Virus record (IMG/VR): IMGVR_UViG_3300035703_000312
Location: 1-31,489 of that record
Direction: 5' to 3' (one strand)
DNA length: 31,489 bases
Source: a virus
Shown here: positions 5,430 to 26,880 of the stretch, piece by piece
Layout of the letters: each line of letters opens with the position of its first letter
Position numbering within the stretch: position 1 is the first letter of the stretch
The notes under the pieces: model-generated
Told to the model about the DNA's origin: nothing
The model's input: the letters and a program-made list of their open reading frames with translations, nothing else
The model's database searches: none
Program-made: the position numbers and the translations under genes

Positions 5430-6612
5430 CGAAAACTCCTCTTAGGAACGGTAACCAATACTTTTCCCAAACAGTTTCCACATCAAAATCCAACGCAAAC
5501 TTTCGTGACGCCGTAGAGAAGCCGCGCTCCGCCTTATACGCCAGCTCCAACGCTTCCACCATCGATCCGATACTAGGAATGTGGTAAAACGCTTTCTGTG
5601 GTTCGTCCCAGAACGGCTGACCTTCCACAAGGAAGGAATCTTCCCCAACCAAATCTTGCGTAGCCGCCCAGTTGGACGTGATAACCCTAGTTCCGCAGGC
5701 TTGGGCTTCGATAACAGGCACACCAAACCCTTCGCCGTAAGTCGCCGCCAATAACACATCGGAGGCCGTGTAAATCGCGGCTAAGGTTTGTGTTGGGTAT
5801 CCGATCCGTAACTGGTTGCTGTCAGCGATCGTGACCGTCCCATCGCCCAAGCCGACAGCCTGTAACAGAAGTTCCACAGAGAAGCCGCCCATAATCGGAG
5901 CCGGCTCCATGTGAAGATACAAGTGGGAATCGGGATACTTCTTGTGGAACATCGCGAACGCCATTATCTGTTCTGATAATGCTTTCCGATGAAGAATCCC
6001 GTTAGCTTTGTTAGCGGCGACCATCGACACCAGGAAAGTATCTTCCGCGATCCCCATAAACTTGCGAGTCGGAACACCTTCGATAGTTGTCGTCTTGCCC
6101 ATTATTTGCGTGTCAACGGCGTGCGGAATATAAACCGATTCTATATTCGCCTTCGCCAGCTGCCGATAACCGTGAGGCGACATCGTGATTGGTTTCACAT
6201 TCTCACGCGAAAGGAACTCCCCTACAGCCGGAGGGAGCGTAACGTGGTCGAGAGGAACCCAAGGATATATCGGGTGTTCAAACTTTAGTTTGTTGTAAAC
6301 CCAGGCATCGTAAATCGGCATGAGCAAATGTTTTTGGTTAGGCTTCTCCGCGATGTGTTTCTCATACCAAACAGGGATAACGTCCTCGCCGTAAAGGGTC
6401 ATACCCCTCGGGTAGTGGGCCGCGTTTCCGTGCTTAGTTTTGATTGTGTCGATCGCACCTTCTAAGCCGTAGTTGGAAATAACGGCCGTGTGGAGCCCGT
6501 GACGGATTAGTCGTTCCACTAATAGTTGGACTTGAACACCGTACCCTGTGGCGGCGTGGGGAGAGTTTGACGCGATGGCGACGGATCCGGCGATTTTTTC
6601 GTAGGTTGGCAT
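5419..6612 (-). CDS. Family 4 (GT-B fold) glycosyltransferase
   Basis: This 397-residue protein has two Rossmann-like halves. The N-terminal half has SPHAATGYGVQVQLLVERL, the acceptor-side glycine-rich start. The C-terminal donor domain includes YGEGFGVPVIEAQACG at about residues 292-307, with E294 and E302 forming the EX7E motif of retaining GT4 enzymes. It opens the leftward operon below the divergent control region, and its end overlaps the cytidylyltransferase by 11 bases. No signal peptide is visible. Phage GT4 enzymes of this size can decorate capsid or tail proteins or modified DNA bases; the sequence does not decide. The donor is not predicted. Confidence 0.85.
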   Translation of the reverse strand: MPTYEKIAGSVAIASNSPHAATGYGVQVQLLVERLIRHGLHTAVISNYGLEGAIDTIKTKHGNAAHYPRGMTLYGEDVIPVWYEKHIAEKPNQKHLLMPIYDAWVYNKLKFEHPIYPWVPLDHVTLPPAVGEFLSRENVKPITMSPHGYRQLAKANIESVYIPHAVDTQIMGKTTTIEGVPTRKFMGIAEDTFLVSMVAANKANGILHRKALSEQIMAFAMFHKKYPDSHLYLHMEPAPIMGGFSVELLLQAVGLGDGTVTIADSNQLRIGYPTQTLAAIYTASDVLLAATYGEGFGVPVIEAQACGTRVITSNWAATQDLVGEDSFLVEGQPFWDEPQKAFYHIPSIGSMVEALELAYKAERGFSTASRKFALDFDVETVWEKYWLPFLRGVFDAK

Positions 6613-6702
6613 GTGCTTAGCGTAGCAAAAAAAGTCAAAAAAAGTTTCTGAAAAGTTCGGTTTTGTTTAGGACAACCGGAGGGATACCGGTATCCTTATC
6701 TT
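6613..6702. promoter_or_regulatory. Divergent control region with A-tracts and 14-bp palindrome
   Basis: This region separates the leftward GT4 gene from the rightward small-protein operon. It contains a tandem 10-bp repeat CAAAAAAAGT at 6626-6645, likely curved DNA or an UP element, then GTTTAGG at 6665-6671. The perfect palindrome GGATACCGGTATCC lies at 6682-6695, seven bases before an ATG at 6703. The hexamer TATCCT at 6691-6696 could be a -10 box for a transcript starting near 6703. The same layout with the same spacings is found at 25266-25303. No convincing leftward promoter was identified. Confidence 0.65.
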
Positions 6703-6735
6703 ATGAACGATTCCACCGATACTAAGGAAACTAAA

Positions 6736-6921
6736 ATGAAAATCAACTTCAGCAACCTCAAAGGCGACAACCAGCAAAAGTTGGAAACCTTAAGCCACCT
6801 CCGCGCTAACGCTAGTCGCGCGATTGACCGCCTGGAGCGCGCCGGTAGCGTCACCAAGCTCCAGGAAGCGATCGATTCCTACGAAGCGATTTGCTACGAA
6901 ATCAACAAGTTCGCCCGATAG
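6736..6921 (+). CDS. Small helical protein of unknown function
   Basis: A 61-residue basic, helical protein that I do not recognise, with a heptad-like pattern through SHLRANASRAIDRLERAG and EAIDSYEAICYEINKF. The ATG at 6736 is preferred because AAGGA lies seven bases upstream, as for the other genes of this strand. An in-frame ATG at 6703 would add 11 residues but has no ribosome site and sits seven bases from the palindrome. It is the first gene of a two-gene rightward operon that interrupts the leftward structural genes. The control region matches that of the 25.3 kb operon, so it is probably expressed at the same time as those genes. Confidence 0.6.
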   Translation: MKINFSNLKGDNQQKLETLSHLRANASRAIDRLERAGSVTKLQEAIDSYEAICYEINKFAR

Positions 6922-6935
6922 AAAGGAAAACCCTA

Positions 6936-7112
6936 ATGAACACAAAAACCCACTCCGTCTACATCGAAGACAAGAAGAAAGGCCACCAGTCCGAGATCTT
7001 CTGCAACTCTCTGACCGCAGCCGTCGAACTCCTAGAGGAACTTCACCAATGGGCTCGCGATAACGACTACGCACCCGGTCGCGACTACGCTCTAACGCTT
7101 TCCAAGATCTAA
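6936..7112 (+). CDS. Small protein of unknown function
   Basis: A 58-residue protein, mixed charge, not recognised. The start MNTKTHSVYIEDKKK is preceded by AGAAAGGA with eight bases of spacing. An upstream in-frame start at 6891 would overlap the previous gene and is rejected. The C-terminal half has a helix (LTAAVELLEELHQWA) followed by DNDYAPGRDYAL, suggesting a small alpha-beta fold. It is the last gene before the bidirectional hairpin at 7129-7160. Confidence 0.6.
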   Translation: MNTKTHSVYIEDKKKGHQSEIFCNSLTAAVELLEELHQWARDNDYAPGRDYALTLSKI

Positions 7113-7128: not shown

Positions 7129-7160
7129 GGAGCCCCAGGAAACCTACAACCTGGGGCTCC
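7129..7160. terminator. Bidirectional intrinsic terminator
   Basis: Perfect 11-bp stem GGAGCCCCAGG / CCTGGGGCTCC with a 10-base loop. On the plus strand it is followed by ACTTCTTT; on the minus strand by GCCCTTTTTC. It lies between the end of the rightward small-gene pair and the end of the leftward capsid gene, where it can stop both. This would separate capsid transcription from the sugar-transfer cassette downstream. Confidence 0.8.
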
Positions 7161-7179: not shown

Positions 7180-8298
7180 TTAGGCGAGAGCCAAGTACTT
7201 GACGTGGCTTGCGTGAGTCAAACCAGCGTCCAGACGGTACACGAACCGGTAAGCGGTCACGTCGTTCTCGAAGTAAGCGTCCGTAGAGGTCGCAACTTCC
7301 AGACCGGTCGTCGTCACCTTGACCGAAGGCCAGTGTCCGAAGAAGACGGCCTTGTTGCCAGTAGCGATCGCGGCGACTGCTGGGTTCTCGAAGATTTCGT
7401 AACCGAGAACACGGTCTGGGCCGCCGACCTGTGGATCGTAAATGTAGGATCCATCGTTGTCCTTCAAACGGCGGATCGCTCCGACGGTCTGAGTGTTAGC
7501 CATGTAGCCGACACCAGGAAGGCGACGAGCGGCACCATCGAGGCTGTAAGCCAAGGTGATGAGATCGTCAGCGGTAAACGCGTTAGTCGTACCAGCGGTG
7601 ACACCGGAACCAGCGGCCGTACCCACGATAGCGTGAATGTAGGAGTTGGCTTTGGTGCCGATCGCGTTACCGGCCTGCTCAGCGATGACACTCTGAATGT
7701 CGAAGCCGGCGTCAGTCAACAGTTCGTTAGCGATCTGTACGATAAAGGCCTGCTTCTTCGGGGACAGAAGGATCGAGCTGAAGGTTGGGACGGATTCTGC
7801 GATTGCGGAACCGGCGGCGTACTCTGTTGCGGTGCTGTAAGCGGTCATGGTTGGGATACGAAGATCCGAACCGGAAGAACGCTCGATAACATCGGCGACG
7901 TCCAAGTATGGGCCGACAAGACGGGCAATCATCATTACCTGGTCGAAGAACTCGACAGGAACGGTGTTCGCGGAGTTGACGAGAGCGCGCTTCTCAAAAG
8001 TGTGAGAGCGAACTTCGCCACGAGCCATAGCGCGGAAGATTTCTGCGTCGGACCGTGATTCACCTACAGGCACGAAACCGCGAGCGGCCTCTGCTGCCTC
8101 CAAAGAACGCTCCTCGTTGCGCTGAGCGACCTCGATGGCCTCAGACGCGCGACGAATGTCGTCTTCGATTTTGTTGATTTTCTCAATCTCAGCAACGTCA
8201 AGTCCACGCTTGTCTGCCTCAGCACCGTCGATAACATCGCGGATCTGGTGGGTCAAATTAGCACGGATTTCTTGCTGAGTCTTAATGAACTCAGACAT
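7180..8298 (-). CDS. Major capsid protein, HK97 fold
   Basis: This 372-residue protein builds the capsid shell. Residues 1-75 form an acidic coiled coil (IRANLTHQIRDVIDGAEADK onward), the expected delta-domain scaffold removed by the neighbouring protease. From about residue 105 the N-arm, E-loop and P-domain order of HK97-like capsids can be followed, including SGSDLRIPTMT, a long spine helix near NELLTDAGFDIQSVIAEQ, and the late FFGHWPSVKVTTTGLEV phrase. AAGGAGAATA lies directly before the ATG. The 203-base leader upstream holds a tRNA-like structure, and a strong hairpin follows the stop. Both could help give this gene its own stable transcript. Confidence 0.93.
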   Translation of the reverse strand: MSEFIKTQQEIRANLTHQIRDVIDGAEADKRGLDVAEIEKINKIEDDIRRASEAIEVAQRNEERSLEAAEAARGFVPVGESRSDAEIFRAMARGEVRSHTFEKRALVNSANTVPVEFFDQVMMIARLVGPYLDVADVIERSSGSDLRIPTMTAYSTATEYAAGSAIAESVPTFSSILLSPKKQAFIVQIANELLTDAGFDIQSVIAEQAGNAIGTKANSYIHAIVGTAAGSGVTAGTTNAFTADDLITLAYSLDGAARRLPGVGYMANTQTVGAIRRLKDNDGSYIYDPQVGGPDRVLGYEIFENPAVAAIATGNKAVFFGHWPSVKVTTTGLEVATSTDAYFENDVTAYRFVYRLDAGLTHASHVKYLALA

Positions 8299-25156: not shown

Positions 25157-25303
25157 GATTTTCCCTTCATTTTGGTTAGCGTCAATCGACGCGGCTTAAG
25201 CCTAACCGCGACCGGCGACATTGACCCAATATTTCTAAAAAAAACTTAAAAAAAAATATCGAATCGTTTAGGAAACCTAGACGGCTACCGGTAGCCTTGA
25301 GTC
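25157..25303. promoter_or_regulatory. Main divergent control region of the early operons
   Basis: This region separates the leftward early genes from the rightward small-protein operon. It contains a hairpin GCGTC-AATC-GACGC next to the palindrome GGCTTAAGCC (about 25179-25202), and two A-tracts near 25237-25258. GTTTAGG lies at 25266-25272, and the palindrome GGCTACCGGTAGCC at 25283-25296, seven bases before an ATG at 25304. The last three elements copy the 6.6 kb control region with identical spacings. A -10-like TAGCCT sits at 25292-25297. Confidence 0.65.
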
Positions 25304-25336
25304 ATGAATGAAACCACCCGATTGAAAGGAACCAAA

Positions 25337-25585
25337 ATGAAAGACGTAAGCGTTGTGGAAACTGCCCAAATGACCAAGTACTACCGAGGCGAGTTTTCCT
25401 ACCTAACGAACCGCACGATCCTCGATGTTCGCGCTATGTATCCAGAGGAAATGGAACTGTTTCTTTGGAGCGGAAAGCCTGGTGCCGTGTTTCTTCTAGA
25501 CGACGGAGGGTTATTTATCCCCACCTCTGACGTCGAAGGCAACGGTATCGGTCACCTGACGATCCAGCGAGGCAAAAAAGCGTGA
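25337..25585 (+). CDS. Hypothetical protein, first gene of rightward operon
   Basis: An 82-residue acidic alpha-beta protein starting MKDVSVVETAQMTKYYR and containing YPEEMELFLWSGKPGAVFLLDDGGLFIP, not recognised. ATG at 25337 is preferred since AAAGGAACC stands just upstream. An in-frame ATG at 25304 would add MNETTRLKGTK, eleven residues that parallel the eleven at 6703-6735, and lacks a ribosome site. It leads a six-gene operon of small proteins. Confidence 0.6.
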   Translation: MKDVSVVETAQMTKYYRGEFSYLTNRTILDVRAMYPEEMELFLWSGKPGAVFLLDDGGLFIPTSDVEGNGIGHLTIQRGKKA

Positions 25586-25623
25586 GCGCCCAAGCGACCG
25601 GCAACCACCCGAAAGGAACCGAA

Positions 25624-25941
25624 ATGATAGAAGAAACGCTATACAAGCCCTGGATAATCTTCGACCACGAGTACCAAGATTATTCTTGCGAAGAACACGC
25701 GATCGATTACGCAAACACCATCGATGCTCAAAAGTACGGTGACACCGCTTACGGTATCGCCAAAGAGGGTTACGGTATGGTCGCCGATATTTATGAGATC
25801 GCTTCGTTCGCTCGTGACGAAACCGATTACCCAGCCGCTTGCGTTTGCGGACGATACCTCGACATACGCTTGACCGCCGAGGGACAAAATTATCTGGCCG
25901 AAAACGACTTCCCTGCCTGGCTCAAAGCACTCCACCAATAG
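25624..25941 (+). CDS. Hypothetical acidic protein
   Basis: A 105-residue acidic protein starting MIEETLYKPWIIFDHEY, with CEEHAIDYANTI, a Gly/Tyr-rich central part and a C-terminal helix (LAENDFPAWLKAL). GAAAGGAACCGAA precedes the ATG. A GTG at 25582 overlapping the preceding stop is a weaker alternative. No family was recognised. Its high negative charge and small size are features often seen in DNA-mimic or inhibitor proteins; this is a loose inference. Confidence 0.58.
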   Translation: MIEETLYKPWIIFDHEYQDYSCEEHAIDYANTIDAQKYGDTAYGIAKEGYGMVADIYEIASFARDETDYPAACVCGRYLDIRLTAEGQNYLAENDFPAWLKALHQ

Positions 25942-25953
25942 AAAGGAAACACG

Positions 25954-26163
25954 ATGAGTATGTACCAACTAACCGCAAAAATCGAAGGCGGCACCAACGA
26001 AGCGTATTTGTTTGACGCTTTATCCGATGAGGAAGCAACCATGACCGCCATCGGTTACATAATGGACGCGGCCTACGCGCACAAGTCGGGTGCTTGGGCG
26101 AAGGGTGCTATATCCCTCAGCGATCCTGACGGCAACGTCATCCGCACTATGAACGCGAAGTAG
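25954..26163 (+). CDS. Hypothetical small protein
   Basis: A 69-residue protein, MSMYQLTAKIEGGTNEAYLFD..., with strands flanking a helix SDEEATMTAIGYIMDAAYA and ending in a strand ISLSDPDGNVIRTM. AAAGGAAACACG precedes the ATG. The fold pattern looks like a small alpha-beta sandwich. Not recognised. Third gene of the rightward operon. Confidence 0.6.
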   Translation: MSMYQLTAKIEGGTNEAYLFDALSDEEATMTAIGYIMDAAYAHKSGAWAKGAISLSDPDGNVIRTMNAK

Positions 26164-26175
26164 AAAGGAAACACG

Positions 26176-26340
26176 ATGAACCGCCCAACAGAGAAAGATA
26201 TCGACACCACCGCCTCCGGTTACTACCGGTTGCCCTGCGACGGTCGCCACGACCACTCGTACCACTTCTATATGTACTACACCAAGCGCGACATTATGAA
26301 AATGTGGCGCGAAGAACACCCGAAAGGAAAAAACAAATGA
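26176..26340 (+). CDS. Hypothetical mini-protein rich in Tyr and His
   Basis: A 54-residue protein beginning MNRPTEKDIDTTASGYYRL and containing CDGRHDHSYHFYMYYTKRD, unusually rich in aromatic and His residues. AGAAAGGAAACACG stands right before the ATG and its stop overlaps the next ATG as ATGA, so it is well supported despite its size. Function unknown. Confidence 0.62.
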   Translation: MNRPTEKDIDTTASGYYRLPCDGRHDHSYHFYMYYTKRDIMKMWREEHPKGKNK

Positions 26341-26639
26341 ACGACAAATGGCGTGAACTAATCGACAACCCACCTAAAGGCCTCGACGCCATCGCGGACT
26401 TATTTGACCTGTCGACCAACCACGAATACCCGACACCGGCAACCCTGTTCATCGATCTCATCGGATACACGACTGAGGAATACGGCTATGTGCTTGTGAA
26501 AGATATTAGCGTCTACGTCAGCCGGTTCAACTATCTTGAACTGGGCCGGCTCGGTCAAGCACTTGACGACTACACGGATCGCCCACAAGAGGGATTCCAA
26601 TACGTCAGCGACATTCTGGAAGCGGAGATGGACGACTAA
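26337..26639 (+). CDS. Hypothetical acidic protein
   Basis: A 100-residue acidic, mostly helical protein starting MNDKWRELIDNPPKGLDAIAD and ending ILEAEMDD. GAAAGGAAAAAACAA precedes ATG at 26337. The upstream extension of the frame is rejected because it runs inside the preceding gene. It overlaps the next gene by one base. No family was recognised. Confidence 0.6.
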   Translation: MNDKWRELIDNPPKGLDAIADLFDLSTNHEYPTPATLFIDLIGYTTEEYGYVLVKDISVYVSRFNYLELGRLGQALDDYTDRPQEGFQYVSDILEAEMDD

Positions 26640-26827
26640 TGGAAGAACTACTGGAAAAGATGCGCCGCGCAAAACAAGAACGCGAACACGTCACGAAACA
26701 GCTCAACCAAAACACGATCGCGATGCGCCAACTGGTTATCGCCGCTGTGAACGCAGGGTTATTCGCCCCGACGATCGCCCATCATCTAGGCGTAACGAAA
26801 AGAACGATCTACAAGTGGTCTAAATAA
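26639..26827 (+). CDS. Small helix-turn-helix protein
   Basis: A 62-residue protein with a coiled-coil-like N-terminal half (EELLEKMRRAKQEREHVTKQL) and a C-terminal helix-turn-helix: VNAGLFAPTIAHHLGVTKRTIYKW. This reads like the helix-turn-helix of resolvase or sigma-like DNA-binding domains. It is the last gene of the rightward operon before the hairpin. It is a candidate regulator of the operon, perhaps binding the shared palindrome, which is inference. Confidence 0.72.
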   Translation: MEELLEKMRRAKQEREHVTKQLNQNTIAMRQLVIAAVNAGLFAPTIAHHLGVTKRTIYKWSK

Positions 26828-26880
26828 CGGAACCACCGGCAGGGGAAGGGGGACTAAAACCTGCCGGTGGTATTTCCGTT
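26826..26880 (+). terminator. Long hairpin ending the rightward operon
   Basis: An 11-bp perfect stem CCACCGGCAGG (26833-26843) / CCTGCCGGTGG (26860-26870) is extended by AACGGAA (26826-26832) / TTCCGTT (26874-26880) with a TAT bulge. The loop is 16 bases. No long T-run follows, so it may be a weak intrinsic terminator or an mRNA 3'-protecting hairpin. It starts right at the stop of the HTH gene. Confidence 0.65.

Follow-up and report, generated by a model that had tools for sequence, protein, structure and literature searches.

An uncultured phage, IMG/VR virus record IMGVR_UViG_3300035703_000312, raises the question of what is encoded by two similar stretches of intergenic DNA, each of which precedes a small rightward operon and ends in two in-frame ATG codons. 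The whole record, 31,489 bases, was analysed and is referred to below as the window. These two operons, op1 and op2, stand against a leftward remainder, in which the gene families include tape measure, neck, capsid, protease, portal, terminase, ParB-like and exonuclease, as well as replication initiator, RusA, RecE-like exonuclease, holin and endolysin; no integrase or CI-like repressor was recognised among the window proteins scanned. Op1 (6703-7112) is flanked by the capsid gene and a glycosyltransferase gene (GT); op2 (25304-26827) is bordered by an early gene, e1, on one side and the holin gene on the other, and has a small helix-turn-helix (HTH) gene, r5, as its last member. The best annotated relative by DNA is the Pontimonas phage phiPsal1 (67% identity over 37% of a 5.5-kb query), which was found with a marine Microbacteriaceae actinobacterium and is described by its authors as lytic (PMC6106888).

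Two copies of one probable control element

The earlier note on this DNA had proposed a duplicated control element, and each part of it was located at the positions given there. The elements at 6668-6738 and 25269-25339 agree at 51/74 positions in an ungapped comparison; the next most similar place in the window, with both strands considered, reaches 35/74. GTTTAGG is present at 6665-6671 and 25266-25272, followed by a perfect 14-bp palindrome, GGATACCGGTATCC at 6682-6695 (op1) and GGCTACCGGTAGCC at 25283-25296 (op2). The first ATG codons, at 6703 and 25304, are in both cases followed 33 nt later by a second (6736 and 25337), in frame and without an intervening stop, with a Shine-Dalgarno (SD) sequence between the two. 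The features of both promoter regions are given below, along with their retention in the contigs found to carry close copies, namely L003 (op2), L004 (op1) and L020 (op1).

6619..6624, minus strand: -10-like TACGCT of the GT gene, its first T 12 nt before the GT ATG; leaderless-type
6627..6643, unstranded: paired A-tracts separating the divergent promoters of GT and op1; they could be a UP element or a bend and are not found in every relative
6668..6673, plus strand: op1 -35-like TAGGAC, 17 bp from the -10, with TAG at equal distance in 5/5 distinct elements; a weak match to TTGACA
6682..6695, unstranded: op1 operator-like dyad GGATA-CCGG-TATCC, arms kept in L004 and L020
6691..6696, plus strand: op1 -10 TATCCT
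6703..6735, plus strand: op1 leader MNDSTDTKETK, a putative 5'-terminal ATG and 10 open codons, with SD AAGGAA at 6724-6729; identical in L004 with a different gene behind it
25199..25204, minus strand: putative -10 TAGGCT of e1, the early gene divergent from op2; it overlaps GGCTTAAGCC and shares TAGSCTTRAG with the op2 promoter
25237..25256, unstranded: paired A-tracts upstream of op2
25269..25274, plus strand: op2 -35-like TAGGAA, 17 bp from the -10
25283..25296, unstranded: op2 operator-like dyad GGCTA-CCGG-TAGCC, kept in L003
25292..25297, plus strand: op2 -10 TAGCCT
25304..25336, plus strand: op2 leader MNETTRLKGTK, a putative 5'-terminal ATG and 10 open codons, with SD AAAGGA at 25325-25330

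The combination GTTTAGG-N10-GGNTACCGGTANCCT, with up to 3 mismatches, occurs in the window only at these two places (0.00 expected), and TAnnnT-N6-ATG followed by an SD and a second in-frame, open ATG within 18-39 nt occurs exactly twice, against 0.02 expected. The palindrome alone, allowing 3 mismatches, was found 17 times where 10.5 were expected, which is not strongly unusual; hence it is the exact copies, set in constant surroundings, that carry the significance. With at most one mismatch, GGATA-N4-TATCC is present at 6682 and once inside the capsid gene, at 7854, and GGCTA-N4-TAGCC at 25283 only.

Related phages modify two details of this description. The spacing from GTTTAGG onward is identical between the window copies, as the earlier note had it, but GTTTAGG itself is not conserved in L020 or in G001, a distant relative of 28,964 bp (capsid 56% identical); these instead retain the trinucleotide TAG, located 17 bp (plus hexamer) before TAnCCT. 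The A-tracts are likewise real in both copies, with four of the 12 runs of at least 7 A or T in the window falling here as two pairs (starts 10 and 11 bp apart), but their distance to the element is not fixed and they are missing upstream of one G001 copy, the second.

This genome, which was recovered with the op2 protein r3b as query, has two elements of its own. The op2 orthologue is preceded by TAGATA-N17-TATCCT-N6-ATG and a 24-nt open leader, whilst the second copy, TAGCGC-N17-TATCCT-N6-ATG with a 21-nt open leader, is found on the opposite strand between the protease and capsid genes, a junction different from that occupied in the window. Elsewhere, looser searches of viral contigs with the dyad met mostly unrelated DNA, the architecture being found only in L003, L004 and L020/L128; in these the palindrome is kept upstream of a different first gene in each, with one centre base differing in L020. 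Bacterial genome contigs contained no exact match to GTTTAGG-N10-dyad-T (one dyad base left open) and no capsid relative, phage records queried with window positions 6600-6740 returned only short matches (E about 5), and tblastn of the HTH protein found none in phage records. Some of the contigs are identical (L003, L074, L131, L132 and L145; L004, L019, L119 and L144; L020, L120, L128, L143 and L147) and many of the L082-L099 rows nearly so, such that the relatives are fewer than the locus count suggests.

Cargo genes and their exchange

Pfam and PHROGs gave no function for the cargo genes behind the two elements, except for weak matches.

6736..6921, plus strand: c1, first cargo gene of op1, 61 aa; no confident family, weak sub-threshold MarR match
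6936..7112, plus strand: c2, second cargo gene of op1, 58 aa; a homologue is the cargo driven by the second G001 element (56% identity, E 5e-19)
7129..7160, unstranded: GC-rich inverted repeat, terminator-like, between the converging op1 and capsid gene; a related hairpin follows the capsid gene in relatives
25337-25585, plus strand: op2 cargo r1, no function assigned
25624-25941, plus strand: op2 cargo r2, no function assigned
25954-26163, plus strand: op2 cargo r3, no function assigned
26176-26340, plus strand: op2 cargo r3b, no function assigned
26337-26639, plus strand: op2 cargo r4, no function assigned (r1-r4 together span 25337..26639)
26639..26827, plus strand: r5, small HTH protein that ends op2; candidate autoregulator binding the dyads
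26833..26870, unstranded: inverted repeat CCACCGGCAGG...CCTGCCGGTGG, terminator-like, after op2; not listed by the T-run scan

Comparison of the loci indicates that op1 is an insertion, forming a counter-oriented cassette, because the gap between the capsid (MCP) and GT genes is just 38-75 bp in 39 of 42 loci; it measures 567 bp in the window, about 650-671 bp in L020 and L019 and 181 bp in L059. This count covers loci with usable MCP and GT matches, those without either being unscored and L001, L004 and the window being left out by name. The op1 cassette is absent from 40 of the 42 scored relatives. The op2 copy (25269) is probably ancestral and that at 6668 a duplicate, since those relatives whose sequence extends over the e1/HTH-operon promoter region have a counterpart of it, several with leaderless-type starts; in several groups, e1 (MGYFK...) diverges from an operon of which the HTH gene is the very first.

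The genes directly behind the element have been exchanged. In L003, r1 is missing from op2 and r2 follows the leader directly, whilst the first gene of op1 in L004 and L020 differs from that of the window, with c2 still kept behind it. The seven first genes behind seven element copies have no meaningful homology with one another. Queries with c2 and r4 retrieved only contigs already found by other queries.

Counter-oriented islands of small genes were also observed between the protease and capsid genes of L034, L035 (5224-5890), L054, L139 (2720-4160), L140 and L141; these appear to lack the element, as judged by eye in the first three and in L139. The islands include homologues of the window gene r3b, and the junction seems to be a repeated insertion site. 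In L137/L138 the r3b homologue is on the same strand as the exonuclease gene, and no element copy was found there in a search of the L138 contig.

A proposed promoter, operator and two possible starts

Leaderless genes, common in Actinobacteria, are marked by a TANNNT motif about 12 bp upstream (Zheng et al., PMC3160421). All five distinct elements have the first T of TAnCCT 12 nt ahead of the first ATG, and in both window copies the 15 nt before this codon, when read by eye, consist of the dyad and -10 region and contain no SD. The suggestion in the earlier note that transcription starts near the first ATG is supported by comparison with relatives in which the HTH gene comes first in the orthologous operon (phiPsal1, the L083-type group, L097, L093 and L096): these have TAnnnT 12-13 nt before a start codon that lacks an SD, this codon being GTG in L096 and ATG in the other groups. 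The op2-equivalent operon of L076, L078 and L081 looks SD-led, not leaderless. Upstream of 56 annotated phiPsal1 CDSs, TAnnnT is found five times at an offset of 12 nt and twice at 13 nt, with no more than two instances at any other offset from 8 to 35.

The same arrangement recurs at the GT gene, where TAnnnT lies 12-13 nt before an in-frame ATG in 41 of 42 scored loci (a set including the window and L004/L019, and skipping loci in which the GT match begins after residue 8) and in all 17 distinct upstream sequences, 12 having it at 12 nt and five at 13 nt. As a separate observation, this gene, lying after the capsid terminator, appears to have its own leaderless-type promoter both in the window (6610-6624, minus strand) and in relatives. 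In phiPsal1 (L005, 8162-8698), two divergent genes, a counter-oriented methyltransferase gene and a GT2 gene, have overlapping leaderless-type -10 sequences, TATCCT and TAGGAT, on opposite strands.

The element is therefore best read as a promoter, an operator and a leaderless start combined, with a weak -35-like TAG, 17 bp, TAnCCT, 6 bp and an ATG at +1. The message would probably begin right at the start codon, and each copy would probably be a regulated promoter. A sigma-70 promoter scan called no promoter at either element, the -35 being poor.

In each of the five distinct elements, the first ATG is also followed by an SD and a further start codon; the leaders between the two starts, of 33, 33, 33, 24 and 21 nt, are all in frame and stop-free. 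Such open leaders are expected at a rate of 19% from composition alone, making this weak evidence; to account for the lengths, a minimum of two changes is required, each by a multiple of three, and this is no more than suggestive. For the cargo, the second ATG is clearly the proper start, because it is exactly there that the cargo has been exchanged, and the leader would then be part of the control element. With the frame preserved across all five leaders, initiation may occur at both ATGs. In E. coli, AUGs at the 5' end of SD-led mRNAs can bind ribosomes, be translated or aid the downstream start (Beck et al., PMC4965119), and by analogy the same options may apply to these leaders.

The leader might instead be an ordinary 5' untranslated region, in which the first ATG is incidental and the SD-led second ATG alone is used, the promoter and operator being as proposed. 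The exchange of cargo at precisely the second ATG favours this, and r2, an internal SD-led gene in the window, stands first behind the leader in L003, implying that the extension is not part of the r2 protein; between L003 and the window the leader has two amino-acid changes and one silent change. However, an incidental ATG would not account for its position at exactly the leaderless distance in 5/5 distinct elements, nor for leaders that are invariably open multiples of three, and both the orthologous operons and the GT gene appear truly to start at the leaderless position. We regard the ordinary untranslated region as a serious competitor, at a little under even odds.

The proposal that the palindrome is an operator over the -10 box likewise gains support from comparison, the dyad being kept in L003, L004 and L020. 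Dyad spacing is equal within a phage and differs between phages: N4 in both window copies and N5 in both of G001, in the 28,964 bp of which GGATA-N5-TATCC, with up to one mismatch, occurs only at the two elements. A single phage-encoded binder would most simply explain this matching within each phage, although the shared spacing in G001 could result from descent of the copies rather than selection. G006, G007 and phiPsal1, which are records holding the HTH promoter, each have one copy of the corresponding motif, and other clades have different dyads, or none, at the HTH-operon promoter.

These patterns also bear on whether a repressor is needed at all. The element could be a strong shared promoter only, conserved on account of a host or phage RNA polymerase factor, with the dyad as a by-product. 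The -10 and -35 spacing is indeed its most constant feature, the binder of the dyad is putative, and there are HTH-first relatives without this dyad. Yet the left arm, which lies in the spacer and is not needed by a promoter, tracks the right arm (GGAT/ATCC versus GGCT/AGCC), the dyad spacing is matched within each phage, and both divergent -10 regions have a clade-specific sequence in common, such as GGACTAGACTC in L078. A promoter without a phage repressor thus seems to us improbable.

A dyad acting as an RNA hairpin upstream of the first ATG, as a translational control or processing site on a transcript originating further upstream, is more improbable still, indeed very much so. Arms around a variable centre of 4-5 nt would also give a 5-bp stem-loop, and the change from A/T to C/G preserves pairing, but folding is no better than for shuffled sequences (z -0.06 and -0.21), on which ground the hairpin was rejected, and the best op1 structure does not use the dyad. 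Moreover, TAnnnT at 12 nt fits a promoter at this position, and no promoter-like site was called on the plus strand upstream.

If the dyads are operators, as we prefer to read them, the best candidate for their binder is r5, on the basis of its position and the matching of dyads within genomes. It matches PHROG 686 (HTH DNA binding; E 2e-7), with Pfam HTH_23 below the cut-off, and its AlphaFold model consists of one long helix followed by an HTH (mean pLDDT 95.5), for which Foldseek found no significant structural match (best E 0.41). Relatives have orthologous HTH genes of this type at the equivalent position. The window and G001 proteins both have TIYKW at the end of the presumed recognition helix, which, from two phages, proves nothing.

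In several groups, reading by eye showed clade-specific sequence common to the two divergent -10 regions: TAGSCTTRAG in the window, GGACTAGACTC in L078, and GTGTA-Y both in phiPsal1 and in the L083-type group. A single regulator of the two divergent promoters would be consistent with this. A further palindrome in the window, GGCTTAAGCC at 25193-25202, overlaps the putative e1 -10 and resembles half of the op2 dyad region. Divergent regions were also noted in L076 and in L078 (about 2120-2230); in the latter, the 11-bp GGACTAGACTC is present as an inverted pair, one at each divergent -10 region, and is likely to be the operator pair of another phage group.

Proposed working and known systems

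Taken together, the comparisons favour, with a probability of roughly two in three, each element being a compact phage promoter-operator with a leaderless start, the copy at 6668 bringing the cassette under the same regulator. RNA polymerase would recognise the weak -35 and the TAnCCT -10, and a dimeric regulator, with r5 as the best candidate, would block the promoter by binding the dyad (arms GGATA/TATCC or GGCTA/TAGCC) over the -10. We infer that the 5' end of the transcript would coincide with the first ATG or fall no more than a base or two away; at this ATG ribosomes could start without an SD, in addition to loading at the SD-led second ATG 33 nt on; as both starts share one open frame, the first protein would perhaps be made in two forms. 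The 25269 copy would be the original promoter of the HTH operon, and its duplicate at 6668 would have put the counter-oriented cassette inserted at the capsid/GT junction under the same regulator.

A wider reading is that this is a portable unit of actinobacterial phages, in which operator, promoter, leaderless AUG and in-frame SD start form a socket for unrelated small genes at the second ATG. Copies of it would be placed in counter-oriented positions among late genes, with phage-specific dyad spacing keeping them under the HTH regulator encoded by the same phage, and the first gene would be made both with and without a short polar N-terminal tag. In this full form the idea is speculative, and we think it on the unlikely side. 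If true, a small phage could gain genes without disturbing its late operon, by copying its own regulated promoter and start region and swapping the gene behind; the element would provide a sequence signature by which such accessory genes could be recognised in uncultured actinobacterial phages. It would also constitute a natural test of whether one mRNA can initiate in a single frame both at a 5'-terminal AUG and at an SD-led one, and of how a small HTH regulator and operators change together between phages.

The nearest published elements are the ESAS and SAS sequences of Cluster K mycobacteriophages (PMC3203893, PMC11373665, PMC12699233). They too are repeated intergenic elements before selected genes of actinobacterial phages, in which a SigA-like promoter is accompanied by an inverted repeat and which are possibly under repressor control; Adephagia has seven copies, with imperfect repeats of 15-17 bp and the 13-bp SAS by the start codon (PMC3203893, PMC11373665). 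The window likewise has a predicted promoter and inverted repeat recurring between genes, but it differs in copy number (two), in the dyad, which is short, perfect and placed over the -10, and in the leaderless-type character of the first ATG; with up to 2 mismatches allowed, the 13-bp SAS GGGATAGGAGCCC had no match. The leaderless, TA-led genes described in Actinobacteria (PMC3160421) are alike in having TAnnnT about 12 nt before the start codon; the present elements differ by a further start, in frame and SD-led, 21-33 nt downstream. E. coli 5'-uAUG mRNAs also combine a 5'-terminal AUG, which may serve as a start or ribosome standby site, with an SD-led gene (PMC4965119); in the present case, however, the upstream frame runs open into the gene, and the arrangement occurs as two copies per phage, with exchanged genes, in an actinobacterial phage.

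Morons of tailed phages are extra genes with their own promoter and terminator, inserted between late genes. Op1 resembles them in that it lies on the other strand between two late genes that are adjacent in relatives; it is accompanied by a promoter-like element and a GC-rich inverted repeat, which may act as its own promoter and terminator. It is unlike them in that its promoter-operator has apparently been copied from the phage's own HTH operon, and in that a gene of the cassette is found at two different junctions. In the PRM-PR region of lambda, a leaderless regulator transcript is divergent from the early genes and shared operators lie over the promoters, features with putative counterparts here, but the small HTH protein of the window is of another type and no CI-like repressor was recognised among the proteins scanned. 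The lambda cI mRNA has itself been called naturally leaderless (PMC4965119). Within a partial coverage of the literature, no title or abstract was found that described a leaderless and SD-led double start common to duplicated phage promoters. The duplication itself is sound, and its proposed reading as a promoter-operator with a leaderless start is supported by comparison and extends to a second genome, G001.
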